Below are positions 21,420 to 53,033 of a stretch of 64,000 nt of DNA, one piece after another (positions within the stretch are counted from its first letter, which is position 1; every line of letters begins with the position of its first letter). The translations under genes and the position numbers were made by a program. A model generated the notes under the pieces. That model worked only from the letters and a program-made list of their open reading frames with translations. It had not been told where the DNA came from and ran no database searches. Source of the stretch: Pyrenula massariospora (lineage: Eukaryota > Ascomycota > Eurotiomycetes > Pyrenulales > Pyrenulaceae). The stretch spans positions 186,001 through 250,000 of the forward strand of contig JAGFMI010000022.1 of the NCBI GenBank assembly GCA_021030905.1. Reading direction: 5' to 3'.

Positions 21420-23334
21420 ATGTCTTTCATTCTCAGAAGATTTATTCATAATGAGGCGATGAAGCAGGACCCGCCAGAGATCTATGGATGGAGGGTCTAC
21501 GCTCTGGCTTGCTCAGTAAGGTGTTTAATCCTTTCTGATTTTAGGAAAATTCTTACTGACCGTGGACATCACCAAAAAGGCATGTTTCGGAGGAATGCTT
21601 TTTGGAATGGAGACCGGTATCATAGGAGGCGTCCTAACTTTAAAGCCATTTGAGGCGTATGTCCCTGCCCGATTGATCTCAAGAGTCTATTCACTAACAA
21701 TTCTCTAGCAAGTATGGGTTGACTGACCTCAGCGATGTCGCTCAAGCAAACTTATCAGCGAACATTGTTTCCACGCTTCAAGCTGGTTGCTTTGTTGGTG
21801 CGCTTGTCGCCTCAGCCATCGCTGACAGATTTGGTCGAAGATCGGCACTAATGGCAGCTGCCGTGGTGGCTTTTATCGGATCAATGATGCAGACAGGCGC
21901 CGATGGTCATCTTGCCGCTCTCTACGTTGGCCGGTATGCTCCTTAAAATTGCTTTACCTTTCCTCGGTCACTGATAGTGCTCTGTCAGTTTCCTTACCGG
22001 CCTCGGCGTTGGTGCCGCGTCTATGGTCACCCCTCTTTACGTCTCCGAAAATGCTCCACGTGCTATTCGAGGGGGTCTCACCGGTGTCTACCAATTGTTC
22101 ATTGTCTTTGGTGTTATGCTTGCTTTTTGGATCAACTATGGTTCTCTGTTGCACCTTAGTGGCAAAGCACAGTACATTGTTCCTCTTTCGATGCAGGGTC
22201 TACCGGCAGTCCTGCTCTTCATCTTCATGTCCCTCTGCAACGAGTCGCCTCGATGGCTTGCCAAGCAAGACCGCTGGGAGGCCGCCAAAACTACCCTCGC
22301 CAAGGTCCGCGCCCTCCCACCGACCCACTCGTACGTCGAGACCGAATTCCTCGAGATCTGCGCCGTGATTGAGCGCGAACGCCTTCTGATCGGCGGAGCG
22401 TCATTCTGGAATCTCCAGAAAGAAATGTGGACCATCCCCGGCAACCGGAAACGTGCACTCATCTCGATCACGCTCATGATCTGCCAACAAATGACGGGTA
22501 CAAACGCCATCAACTACTATGCGCCTCAGATCTTCAAGAACCTCGGCATCACCGGGAATACCACCGGTCTCTTCGCGACGGGAGTGTACGGAATTGTCAA
22601 GACCGTCGCCTGCGCATGCTTCCTCCTGATCGCCGCTGACTCCCTGGGACGCCGGAGATCACGTAAGTACTCCACCTTGCAAGTAAAGCAACAGAACACT
22701 AACTCAAACGGCGCAGTCCTATGGACCAGCATCGCCCAGGGCCTCGCAATGTTCTACATCGGCCTCTACGTCCGCATCTCCCCGCCCCTAAAGGGCGAAG
22801 CCGTGCCCCCGGCCGGATACGTGGCCCTGGTCTGCATCTTCCTGTTCGCCGGCTTCTTCCAGTTCGGCTGGGGGCCCGTCTGCTGGATCTACGTCTCCGA
22901 GATCCCGACCGCAAGGCTGCGGGCTATGAATGTTTCCCTCGCGGCGGCGACGCAGTGGCTGTTCAATTTTGTTGTTGCCAGGTGCGTTTTTCCACCCCCC
23001 TCATATCGTTCTGATTGTTGGTTAAGTGGTGCTGATTTGTGCTGATAGAGCGGTGCCCAACATGCTGGCCACGGTCGGCGCGCACGGCTACGGCACGTAC
23101 CTGATCTTCGGGTCGTTCTGTTTCAGCATGTTCTTCTTCGTGTGGTTCTTTATCCCCGAGACGAAGGGGATGAGTCTGGAGAAGATGGATGATCTGTTTG
23201 GGGTGACGGAGTTGGTCGAGAAGAAGGTTGTCGAGGGGGTGATTGATGCGGAGGATGTTACGGAGACGGCGAGGTTGGGGAGTGTGATGGGCAGGGGGAA
23301 GGAGGGGGGTGATGTTAGGGTTGAGAGGGCTTGA
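21420..23334 (+). CDS. MFS sugar/quinate-type permease
   Basis: Plasma-membrane proton-coupled transporter, 540 aa, in six exons: 21420-21515, 21580-21656, 21709-21933, 21989-22662, 22717-22981 and 23049-23334. All phases agree. The first intron ends in an unusual AAAAAG acceptor after a CTTACTGAC branch. Twelve membrane spans fit. Sugar-porter signatures are present: [13 protein letters not shown] in TM1, [10 protein letters not shown] after TM2, [16 protein letters not shown] after TM6, [17 protein letters not shown] in TM7 and a closing [18 protein letters not shown]. The N-terminus ([21 protein letters not shown]) is the form seen in fungal quinate permeases (QutD/Qa-y). Quinate is therefore the best guess, but no quinate catabolic genes are adjacent. 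Codons are GC-rich towards the 3' end. Confidence 0.92.
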
Positions 23335-26639: not shown

Positions 26640-27318
26640 AGAGAAATGCATGATCAGCTAAATGAGCGTATGGAGAGCCATGACGTGCGTGAAAAGCCTG
26701 CCCCTTCATTTCGACTAGCTAGGCTGATAAGAGTTAATTCTTCAGATAAACGTTGCGATCCCGTGCTTGTGGATGCGGACAGCTACCCTTAAGGCGTTCG
26801 GTACGTTGCTCTTAGCTATTGCTAGGGCAACAATTCACCGCAATTTATTAGTTGTCCTCGTCTTTACAACAACGGACGACATGTATGCCATGGAAGATTT
26901 GCCGAAGACGTGTCAGGATGCCATCGTATTCACCCGTCAACTTGATGTAGACTATCTGTGGATTGATTCTGTTCGCTTATATCGATAACAAACTGCAATA
27001 AGACACCTCGTATCCTTGAGATTTACACCTCAAATTCCCGAGAGGTTTCATCTTACATAATTGAGCAATCAAAGCGTAGATACGCTCTTTCGTGTATTTA
27101 ATAGCCCCAACAACCCTCAACCCGTTGAGGGAATAGTCTCGAATTACACTAAGGTCTTTCAATCACTGTTTAATCCATGGCCACGGCTTATCCGTCCTCG
27201 GGCATCCATGTCGAAGACTAGAATACGGAAGCTTTAAGATATGATTTCATTCTTGGTTAACAGGTTTATACTTTTTTCAGATTTATATCTTTTGTTAACC
27301 CCCTTGACAATGAAACAC

Positions 27319-27442
27319 GGTCCCATGGCGTAGTTGGTTAACGCGTGAGCTCCGCCACCAGATTGAGCACAACAAAAACTAACTCCATATAAAGATCGTA
27401 CTAATAATGCGGGGATCCTGAGTTCGACCCTCAGTGGGACCA
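27319..27442 (+). tRNA. tRNA-Ile(AAU) with a 50-bp insertion between D arm and anticodon arm
   Basis: Reading 27319-27344 plus 27395-27442 gives a complete 74-nt cloverleaf. The acceptor stem pairs GGTCCCA with TGGGACC (7/7). The D arm is GCGT-AGTTGGTTA-ACGC, followed by A26. The anticodon arm is TCGTA-CTAATAA-TGCGG with anticodon AAT at 27403-27405. The variable loop is GGATC, the T arm is CTGAG-TTCGACC-CTCAG, and the discriminator is A. The A box (TGGCGTAGTTGG) and B box (GTTCGACCC) are intact, and a T5 terminator lies at 27475. The extra 50 bases do not sit at the 37/38 position of ordinary eukaryotic tRNA introns. They sit at 26/27, starting GTGAGC and ending AAAG with ACTAAC inside. The gene lies in the gap of the HET relic. 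It could also be a pseudogene made by insertion, but exact GT-AG boundaries restoring a perfect tRNA argue against that. Confidence 0.85.
27345..27394 (+). other. Putative spliceosomal-type intron within the tRNA-Ile gene
   Basis: 50 bases, GTGAGC at the 5' end, ACTAAC at 27378-27383 with the branch A 12 bases before the 3' AG. These values match mRNA introns of the same window: GTGAGC is the donor at 5792, lengths are 47-55 bp, and AAAAG acceptors occur at 21579 and 42676. Removing exactly this segment restores a normal tRNA. Confidence 0.75.
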
Positions 27443-27474
27443 TCAGGAAATCAAAAGGATGGGATACATCCAAC

Positions 27475-27479
27475 TTTTT
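27475..27479 (+). terminator. RNA polymerase III terminator of the tRNA-Ile gene
   Basis: Run of five T on the coding strand 33 bases after the discriminator base; the first such run downstream. Confidence 0.65.
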
Positions 27480-28165
27480 GCCCTCGATGTTTAACCTATG
27501 ATCTTGTTCTCTTTGTATTTTGATTCTTTGCCATCTTGTTCTTCAAGTATTTCTAAGGGCAGGCTATTTAACAAAGAAAGTTTGCCGAGCCGAGTATCAA
27601 AATTATCCGCGAGCTCTGTACGTGGCCTTGAGCCATGACGCTCGCCAATACTTCGTGTCGCGAACAAGATGGTATCGGCCATGACCACCAGGCGGCATAT
27701 CTTGACAGTCACAAAGGCCACGGTTGAGAATGTCGAACCAAATCCGTTTCCACTGGCCACCTCCGGAGCTGTTCGATTGAGCGGCTTTGCCCTACCTTAT
27801 TTTGTTCGCTCGATTACCACCATGTCTAACGGGACGGCAACAATGCAATGTGTGGATGATATATTTACAGGAAATCTCTATCTAGATGAAAGACATTCTA
27901 CCTAGTCAACTGGTCCGCTCACCATGAAGCCGTTAATTTAAAGCTGTATATGATCGTCATTGGCAGGTTCTCTTGCAAGTTCGGGGAGGCCCATCTCAGT
28001 GCCTACTTCCTTGCGACTATACTCCAGCAAAATCATGCAGACTTCACTCGAATGACACCCAATGTAGCACCTTCAGCCGAGTCGGTGTTTTTCACATCAA
28101 CGACAATTACGTCTTGATCTCGCGTCTTCGGGACGATCAAACGAAAGAAACTAGTCTCATATGAG

Positions 28166-49741: not shown

Positions 49742-50624
49742 GGCTTGGTCTACGGATCCGATGCGGGATGGGCGGGACCAAGTCACCTACTCCCGGGCTT
49801 TTGGACATGAGGGCTATGACTAGATCTGGCAGGTAACAGAGCACCTCCATCCCCGACTCGAATAGGAGTTCAAACTGGGCGGTTGGGTATTTACTTTTGC
49901 ATGCTTGCAGCACTGACGGCAACTCGTATGTCCCATATCGTCGTCCTGTCCCGAGCATGTCACCGACCCCTGGGGCCCTCATTTCTAGAAGACAGCTTTG
50001 CGCTCTTGGGACAGAGCACTGAGGACGGTCCAATGGACCCTCTAGGGAAGATTCGGCAGATCATTTGGCTGATCACGGTTTCTTTGATAATTAAGACTTT
50101 TTCTAGCTTGACAATGAGATATGAATTTTCCTGCAGTGCTTTTCCAATGGCTCGGAAACTAGCTTCCTGGTAGCATATCATGCTCCTGAATCGACGCGTT
50201 TAGAACGAGCCATCCTTTTCGGCGGTCGACAACAGGTTTGTGCCAAAGGAATTCTCCATGATATTTAGAACATGTCGCCGTTGTTAAAGTTGATGGCCAT
50301 CGTTAGTACGGTCATAATATCCCATCGACGATGAAGAGTTGATGCTGAACTCGGTCCATCATCGCAAGGGACGGCTAAATCGTTCCTTGTCGATGCTGGG
50401 TGTCAGAGCATGTGGCGCCTCCAATATAACCCGGGCGGGCGCCAGTGTTAACAATTCGATGCCCTGCGACTCCTGAACCCAGCCTGCGCCAGCCCCGCGT
50501 CGCTTTGTGGAGTGGAGCACCGGCAAATCCTCGGCCAAACTTTCTCGAATGCACAGAAAATTTACCCGGAGCTGTGATTGAGCGAGTTCTGTGTGAAGAT
50601 ACACTACAGGTGGTAGCCTTCGCC

Positions 50625-53033
50625 ATGTCAAGCTCAACGGCGCAGAAGAGAAAAGCTGTTACGAGGGATGTCGAAAGCGACCCTGCCATCGTGTCTGGTG
50701 ACGAGTTCGAGCTTGGGCAGCTTGATGGAGAAATATCGAGCAGTGAGAGTGGGGAAGACGTTGACAGTCTAGACGATGAGGATGAGCTGGACGGGGAAGA
50801 AGAGGAAAGTGAGGAGCTCGGGAGCGATGAGATACCGTCCGAGGAAGAGTCCTTCGATGGACTGAAAGAAATCACAGCAAAAAATACTGCACTTAACAGT
50901 GCCACGAAGCAAAACGCAAACACAGCCAACGGTAATGTTGACGAGGACGACGACAGACCCAATTATCGTGTTGTGCGAGATGCCAATGGCAATAAACGAT
51001 ACCTATATCCCGAGATTGATCCCGACGATGTCTCAGACGAATCAGACGTGAATGAGGAGGCAAATACTATTGGCAATATCCCGCTTTCCTTCTATGATCA
51101 ATACCCGCATATTGGATACAACATCAATGGCAAGAAGATCATGCGGCCTGCCACAGGAGAAGCTCTTGATGCTTTACTGGACAGCATCGAGGTCCCAAAG
51201 GGGTTTACAGGCCTGACAGATCCTTCTACTGGCAAGCCGTTAGAGCTTAGTCAGGACGAATTGCAGCTGTTACGCAAGGTTCAGATGAATGAGATTCCTG
51301 AGGACGGATATAACCCATATGAGCCGACTGTTGAGTATTTTACAAGCCAGACGGAGATTATGCCCTTGAGCTCCGCGCCAGAGCCGAAGCGGCGATTCGT
51401 GCCTTCAAAGCATGAGGCCAAGAGGGTAATGAAGATAGTGCGAGCGATTCGGGAAGGCCGCATTATTCCGTACAAACCCCCGGAGGAAAGAGAAGAGGAG
51501 GAAGATGATGTTCAAAGACATGACATCTGGGCCAACGAAGACGCTCGTCCAGACCATCCTATGAATGTTCCCGCCCCGAAGCTCCCACCACCAAACTTTG
51601 ACGAATCATATCATCCACCGCCCGAGTATCTACCTAACCAGGCGGAAAAGAAAGCGTGGAATGAGACAGAGCTAGAAGACCGAGATAAAGATTTCCTTCC
51701 CACTGATCACAAGTCACTGCGCTCTGTACCTGGTTATGCAGATTTTGTCAAAGAAAAATTTGAACGATGTCTAGATCTCTATCTAGCCCCCAGGATTCGG
51801 AAATCCAAGCTCAATATTGATCCTGAATCTCTTTTACCAAAATTACCTAGTCCGGAGGAGCTGAAACCATTCCCGACTAGATGCGATAAGACTTTTACAG
51901 GCCATCAGGGTCGAATCAGGAGCTGCGCTTTTGATCCTTCAGGATCATACATTGCAACTGGTGGCGATGATGGCACCGTCCGCATTTGGGCTCTCGAAAC
52001 AGGTCGCCAAATGTGGTCTGCCGTCATTAAATCCAACGAAGCCGTCAATGTTGTCCGGTGGCGTCCTGGCCGAGACGCGTCGATACTTGTCATTGCCGCC
52101 GGGGACAGCATTTACTTTGCTATTCCGCAAATTGATGACTTATCCCTTAAATCATCCGGGCTTGACGCAGATCTTGAAGCTACCAGTGACGCTGTATTGT
52201 CTGCAGGCTTCGGGACGGCGGCAACTTCCAAATCCACCTCTTCGAACACCAAATCCGAATTATCACCAACCTGGCTTCGACCTTCCTCCGCTCTCCAATC
52301 GTCTGATATTCTCCTTACCATCCCTAGCCCGCACTCTACACAAGCTCCCAAGGCTCTGTCTCTCCACCGCCATGGCAACTACCTTGTAACAATCTCACCA
52401 TCTCCCAGCACACCCGCTCGTAATGCTATCGCCATCCATACCCTCTCCACTCATAGAACTCAATACCCTTTCACCAAACGTCTCAAGGGCGGTGGCACCC
52501 CCCAGATCGCACACTTTCACCCTTCCAAACCTCTTCTCTTCGTCGCTAATCAGCGCATCATTCGCGCCTACGACTTGTCACGCCAGACTCTAGTCCGTGT
52601 CATCAGTCCAGGTGCCCGCTGGATCTCCAGCTTCGACCTACATCCCTCTAGTTCCATCGGCCCAGTGGCGGATAACTTGATCGTGGGGAGCTATGATCGA
52701 AAACTCTTGTACCATGACCTCGATCTGTCGCCTCACCCGTACAAGACACTACGATATCATTCCAAGGCCATCAGGACGGTCAAATGGCACCCGAGATATC
52801 CACTGTTTGTGGATGGTAGTGACGATGGGAGTTTGCAGGTTTTTCATGGAGAAGTGGGAAGAGAGATGCTGGAGAATGCCAGGGTGGTGCCGTTAAAGGT
52901 CTTGAAGGGACACAAGGTGGGCAATAGAGAAGGCGAGGGAAAAGGGGTGGGAGTTATGGACGTGGATTGGCATCCGACGGAGGCTTGGTGTGTCAGTGCG
53001 GGAGGGGACGGGGTGGTGAAGCTGTGGGTATAG
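50625..53033 (+). CDS. erb1: Ribosome biogenesis protein Erb1 (BOP1)
   Basis: Nucleolar scaffold of the NOP7-ERB1-YTM1 (PeBoW) complex, required for 27S pre-rRNA processing and 60S assembly. Single exon, 802 aa. The chosen ATG ([12 protein letters not shown]) starts the usual basic then highly acidic N-terminus. The BOP1NT domain follows with [23 protein letters not shown]-like sequence, [36 protein letters not shown] and VRAIREGRI. The linker has the conserved [34 protein letters not shown]. Then come seven WD40 blades, e.g. [15 protein letters not shown]..., VRIWALETG and the final VVKLWV. Nothing is missing. Upstream in-frame codons to 50445 are not conserved and are treated as leader. Confidence 0.96.

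Follow-up and report, generated by a model that had tools for sequence, protein, structure and literature searches.

Candidate U2-type spliceosomal introns in the tRNA genes of a fungus related to Pyrenula

A 50-nt segment that interrupts a tRNA-Ile(AAU) gene is very probably a U2-type spliceosomal intron in a functional Pol III gene, and among the 40 nuclear tRNA genes that we read, 18 appear to carry at least 23 such introns. It is also likely, judging from the sequence, that the tRNA gene set of this fungus has undergone an invasion by spliceosomal introns, with several isoacceptors (all Ile(AAU) among them) now dependent on the spliceosome and two unrelated splicing systems acting in turn on one precursor.

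An interrupted tRNA-Ile(AAU) gene

The gene lies on the plus strand of the window, by which we mean the whole 64-kb stretch of DNA that was analyzed (C14:186001-250000, in a genome of 37,828,131 bases, about 37.8 Mb, on 33 contigs). Once the segment 27345..27394 is excised, exon 1 (27319..27344, tRNA positions 1 to 25) and exon 2 (27395..27442, positions 26 to 73, with the anticodon AAT) form a cloverleaf. As a first-pass annotation of the window had claimed, this cloverleaf is perfect. The spliced tRNA of 74 nt, GGTCCCATGGCGTAGTTGGTTAACGC-ATCGTACTAATAATGCGGGGATCCTGAGTTCGACCCTCAGTGGGACCA, has all stems paired (acceptor, 7/7; D, 4/4; T, 5/5; anticodon stem, 5/5, with two G-U pairs). The insert of 50 nt is a GT-AG segment at tRNA position 25/26. 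Among the boundary pairs lying within 15 nt (as many as 961), three gave equal cloverleaves that keep this anticodon, and one of the three is GT-AG. The position given in the annotation, 26/27, corresponds to a structurally equal cut one base further 3' (TG-GA); the GT-AG cut itself falls at 25/26.

The segment starts with the 5' splice site GTGAGC (27345..27350), whose profile is like that of the other 22 tRNA inserts described below, and ends with AAAG (27391..27394); an mRNA intron in the window (21516-21579) ends with AAAAG. The branch-site motif ACTAAC is at 27378..27383. Both GTGAGC and ACTAAC had been pointed out in the annotation, which counted 12 bases between the motif and the AAAG; the 12 nt are those from the branch A (27382) to the 3' end of the segment. 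Also in line with the annotation, the stretches that we take to be the A box (27326..27337) and the B box (27421..27431), from their match to the consensus, are uninterrupted in the window sequence, and a T5 run that would probably serve as the Pol III terminator is present at 27475..27479. A TATA-like sequence with a putative role, TTTATATC, is found upstream (27282..27289).

The annotation had anticipated that standard scanners would probably miss or reject this gene. ARAGORN in default mode reported no gene here, and the Rfam family search of the 64-kb window gave none at the gathering score. With introns allowed, ARAGORN called Tyr(ata), and with 27345-27394 removed it called Ile(aat). In the minimum-energy prediction for the unspliced RNA, the D and anticodon arms were not formed; the fold was not unusual in comparison with shuffles (z, -1.05).

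A second Ile(AAU) gene interrupted at the same site

Two places in the genome matched the pattern CTAATAA-N15-TTCGANNC. A looser Ile(AAU) pattern, with up to 2 mismatches allowed, gave 10 matches, namely, the same 2 at 0 mismatches and 8 at 2 mismatches that were not tRNA-like by eye. Besides the window gene, an Ile(AAU) gene was thus read on the minus strand of C22 (L036). It has an insert, GTACGT...TACTAAT...AATAG, at 25/26, the same site as in the window gene, and a second one in the T stem, at 62/63, that reads GTGAGT...GATATAG; with both removed, the cloverleaf is full. The spliced tRNAs of the two genes are identical at 47 of 74 positions. Therefore, the splice signals were kept at the shared site while the exons diverged.

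The first-pass annotation had named intact Ile(AAU) genes elsewhere as the finding that would speak against its reading. No intact Ile(AAU) gene was found at up to 2 mismatches or among the 23 Rfam matches outside C25 and C26, where ARAGORN gave no Ile anticodon, and the only two that were found each have an insert at 25/26. A complete cloverleaf, an AAU anticodon, and the lack of an intact rival gene in the pattern and Rfam searches argue for a functional tRNA-Ile(AAU).

Census of interrupted tRNA genes

Inserts of the same kind were found in 16 more tRNA genes and in a U6 gene (see below), which strengthens the case made in the annotation for possible spliceosomal processing of a Pol III tRNA precursor. 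The census combined several searches. The Rfam tRNA family gave 41 matches, with only 63 of 1116 first-look candidates scored, and 23 of the matches were outside C25 and C26. Many tRNAs are present on these two contigs, which we therefore infer to be organellar, and their 18 Rfam matches were kept out of the 40 genes. The B-box patterns GGTTCGARYCC and GGTTCGAYYCC occurred at 51 and 46 places, respectively, and the letters of all 89 places outside C25 and C26 were inspected; this added L036, L044, L057, L077, L090, L106, L109, L112, L113, L123, L137, and L146. L150 came from a search that used concatenated tRNAs as bait and gave only 4 first-look candidates. Together with the window gene, these additions make 14 genes beyond the Rfam set. 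Two D-arm patterns matched 12 and 16 places. Six of the 28 repeated earlier finds (four genes already read and two places on C26), 9 were picked by eye and read, and the other 13 were left out. The nine comprised three tRNA genes (L156, L157, and L160), three odd copies (L153, L154, and L161), and three non-tRNA loci (L155, L158, and L159). The count of 40 tRNA genes, presumed nuclear, comes from an incomplete census and leaves out seven tRNA-like loci (L114, L118, L127, L142, L153, L154, and L161).

Of the 40 genes, 18 had ectopic inserts, 5 of them two each, for a total of 23 inserts. They are 46 to 60 nt long and have GT-AG ends in 22 cases and GC-AG ends in 1, and they span the tRNA from the D arm through the acceptor stem. 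Apart from those in the two Ile(AAU) genes, inserts were found in the D loop of Pro(TGG) (L150) and of Phe(GAA) (L160, with another at 28/29), at 12/13 and 64/65 in Lys(CTT) (L112), at 26/27 in Leu(AAG) (L146) and Trp(CCA) (L156, with another at 54/55), at 29/30 in Arg(ACG) (L090), at 31/32 in Gln(CTG) (L077) and Gln(TTG) (L044), at 32/33 in Arg(TCT) (L157), and at 33/34 in Leu(TAA) (L057, GC-AG) and Leu(CAA) (L137, GT-AG). Further 3', they were at 63/64 in another Gln(TTG) gene (L029), at 69/70 in two Arg(CCG) genes (L027 and L028), at 71/72 in His(GTG) (L026), and in the variable arm and at 70/71 of Ser(AGA) (L024). Inserts therefore share a site in pairs of Ile (25/26), Gln (31/32), and Leu (33/34) genes, and these pairs suggest that the introns were either gained ahead of the divergence of the copies or acquired repeatedly at preferred sites.

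After excision, every acceptor pair was formed in 16 of the 18 genes, with mismatches left in L146 and L044. An ordinary intron at 37/38 was also parsed in 13 of the 18. The Rfam search picked up just 5 of these 18 genes; mRNA-type introns in tRNA precursors, if real, would explain why a standard model search misses most of them.

Several other features were seen in the course of this reading. In L114, L118, L127, and L142, the T arm and acceptor are good, and a long odd insert lies near the anticodon; a hairpin-like stretch, CTTGG...CCAAGCCCTTCGGGGG, is common to L114 and L118. L161 is an initiator-like tRNA with an anticodon loop of 12 nt. Within the long 37/38 introns of L026 and L112 is a AAGGTTGCGGG-like stretch that is similar to the variable region and T stem of these same tRNAs. 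The 65-nt 37/38 intron of tRNA-His also holds a second possible GT-AG reading, which is not claimed here.

Borders and splice signals of the inserts

ARAGORN was tried on excised sequences from 127 loci as a means of separating classes of excision ends. The shares of excisions with a hit were alike across classes: 1354/7206 for GT-AG (a set that included the 127 unexcised loci), 1573/9156 for TG-GA, 1316/8107 for GT-GA, 1509/8181 for TG-AG, and 1160/6167 for CT-AC. The program failed to separate the classes because uninterrupted tRNAs were found wherever else the sequence was cut. We therefore wrote our own cloverleaf scorer and applied it to all excisions of 38 to 75 nt, with any ends, at 119 loci (without L156, L157, and L160). 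The best score among loci not judged to be tRNA was 23.4 (L052), and genes needing one excision scored 25.9 to 29.1. L127 and L142, both left out of the count, reached 28.4 and 28.2 after some excision.

In this unconstrained scan, GT-AG was among 3, 2, 3, and 5 equal best excisions in the window gene, L090, L029, and L146, respectively, and it was the sole best for the T-stem insert of L036. For L150, L057, L137, L077, L044, L024, L026, L027, and L028, another excision outscored the listed one, by a margin of 0.01 to 0.8 points. Among these alternatives, some cut the 5' acceptor or around a loose anticodon loop, and uninterrupted tRNAs likewise tolerate harmless excisions with this scorer. 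We then counted the loci rescued (gain of at least 1.5 and score of at least 25.5) for each of the 256 end-dinucleotide classes over the 119 loci. GT-AG rescued 11 and the next class 7, a modest lead, with one of the 11 (L127) outside the list of 18 genes; at two other thresholds the lead was 8 to 5 and 9 to 5. Excisions chosen by splice signals rescued 9 loci. When they were slid by 7 to 15 bases, 0 loci were rescued in the 5' direction and 1 to 3 in the 3' direction. Slides of one base still rescued 8 and 6 loci, because the borders are often ambiguous by one base.

The border test used for the window gene (up to 961 pairs within 15 nt) was run for each insert. GT-AG or GC-AG was among the equal-or-better placements with the same anticodon in 23 of 23 inserts, and the number of such placements was 7 or fewer in 18 of the 23. 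Loose placement was seen for the variable-arm insert of L024 (163), L150 (49), the D-loop insert of L160 (33), L027 (18), and L028 (13). The product of these border chances is not a P value, since the inserts were partly found by signal. For the same reason, most inserts having been picked out visually or from their GT-AG ends and branch motifs, the following counts are biased upward: a G at position 5 of the 5' site in 21 of the 23 inserts, an AG at the 3' end in all 23, and a YTRAY motif 7 to 24 nt from the 3' end in 21, compared with 5.0 on average, and 12 at most, over 2000 shuffles. YTRAY was absent from the inserts of L146 and L157. In L036 (62/63) and L024 (70/71), it lies 21 to 22 nt from the 3' end.

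Comparison with protein-coding, U6, and 5S genes

For comparison, five mRNA introns were delimited on the plus strand of the window in a sugar-transporter gene (21516..21579, 21657..21708, 21934..21988, 22663..22716, and 22982..23048), each as a gap in the protein alignment with GT/AG ends set by eye. The AAAAG acceptor at 21579, which the first-pass annotation had assigned to a protein gene, fits such a gap. These introns are 52 to 67 nt long, and a branch motif is found in 5 of 5. The tRNA inserts (46 to 60 nt) are like this small set of five, from one window gene, in both length and 5' site, which agrees with the view in the annotation that the segment is the size of an mRNA intron.

A U6 gene (L152, around 1500-1800) has three GT-AG introns of 49 to 51 nt, all with a branch motif, and a five-base exon between two of them. 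No intron was found in a second, diverged U6 gene (L151, around 1500-1600). Five 5S genes matched their family over the full length, with no interruption. The closest named-species matches of ERB1 (50445-53033) were from Pyrenula ochraceoflavens (74%) and Pyrenula sp. (71%), and those of the transporter exon 22023-23045 were likewise from Pyrenula (85% and 78%).

Alternative explanations

Three known intron types did not fit the inserts. A canonical tRNA intron is excluded by position, with 0 of 23 inserts at 37/38. Group I or II introns are rejected by the length of just 46 to 60 nt, and no Rfam family was found at the gathering score in the window. As for introner elements, the 23 inserts include a single matching pair, from the Arg(CCG) genes L027 and L028; thus, there is no sign of a recent mobile intron family among the tRNA inserts.

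A quite improbable alternative is that the tRNA splicing endonuclease cuts the inserts out at bulge-helix-bulge motifs, which would make them ectopic tRNA introns of the kind discussed for Cyanidioschyzon merolae. According to two sources, introns of that species resemble ours in their unusual positions, from the D to the T arm, and in occurring several per gene (PMC9602550, PMC3978253), one tRNA having introns in the D, anticodon, and T arms (PMC9602550); some ectopic introns in a cryptomonad nucleomorph even have no defined motif (PMC3978253). In the review, disrupted tRNAs are connected with bulge-helix-bulge motifs and with the tRNA endonuclease, whereas the inserts here carry mRNA splice signals, and a strict test for the motif (4-bp core and outer helices), which relaxed motifs would escape owing to its fixed distances, gave 0 complete motifs in 23 inserts and a best core of 3 of 4. 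Moreover, cutting at such motifs would leave the GT-AG ends and branch motifs unexplained. That the interrupted genes are pseudogenes, with the real tRNAs made from intact copies that escaped the search, is very unlikely. The incompleteness of the census, the existence of odd or cut-off copies (L153, L154, and L161), and the acceptor mismatches in L146 and L044 fit this idea, but the full acceptor pairing of the other 16 excised cloverleaves would be unexpected in unselected sequence, the searches for an intact Ile(AAU) came out negative, and introns sit at the same site in diverged copies. Least likely of all, and extremely so, is an unrelated insertion that happens to start with GT and end with AG. 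These dinucleotides are common, and the window gene has 3 equal placements; chance is nevertheless contradicted by 23 inserts in 18 genes, mostly at structurally fixed borders.

Proposed processing and relation to known systems

Under the spliceosomal reading, Pol III would transcribe the whole interrupted gene, and the spliceosome would cut out the insert, which would leave as a lariat in the nucleus. The cloverleaf would fold only once the insert is gone, and the tRNA endonuclease and ligase would act second where a 37/38 intron is present. A ruler mechanism, by which the enzyme measures a set distance, is described for the yeast tRNA endonuclease (PMC3978253). The 37/38 introns should go second because the cloverleaf needs removal of the insert and because of this ruler mechanism. 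Splitting of the A box by the Lys intron at 12/13, and of the B box by the Trp intron at 54/55, suggests a greater reliance on upstream elements for the transcription of these genes.

Canonical nuclear tRNA introns, at 37/38, were parsed as a second, separate kind of intron in 13 of the 18 genes, and the inserts differ from them in being elsewhere in the tRNA and having mRNA splice signals. Spliceosomal introns are present in the U6 genes of some fungi, and the U2 snRNA gene of Rhodotorula hasegawae reportedly has one. The likeness lies in GT-AG ends and a branch motif within a small-RNA gene, as in the U6 gene L152. The hosts here are instead tRNA genes, with internal promoters and, in most cases, endonuclease-type introns as well. 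Another precedent outside Pol II genes is the rDNA of lichen ascomycetes, for which spliceosomal (mRNA-type) introns are described (PMC8527467). Our host is related to the lichen genus Pyrenula; the rDNA introns in that source are in Pol I rRNA, whereas the introns here are in Pol III tRNA.

Among the matches listed in the open-licence literature, a scope that takes in few subscription papers, no title or abstract opening mentioned tRNA genes with spliceosomal introns. tRNA splicing is described as spliceosome independent (PMC13149111). If our reading is true, this separation is broken in a fungus with mRNA-type tRNA introns, translation capacity is tied directly to the spliceosome, and the spliceosome can act as a rule on short, highly structured Pol III transcripts. 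With many tRNA genes carrying mRNA-like introns, the cell probably needs its mRNA-splicing machine for some tRNAs. The genes would also offer an example, from nature, of introns gained outside Pol II genes.

A sequence 3' of the window tRNA (27451-27542) resembles the flanks behind tRNA genes of other kinds. Linked flanks were found in 7 of the 32 tested (the window gene, L010, L011, L012, L019, L023, and L109), with the likeness starting about 30 nt or less past the tRNA end. The shared flank may be a small element sitting behind tRNA genes; an ectopic intron is present in just 1 of these 7 genes.
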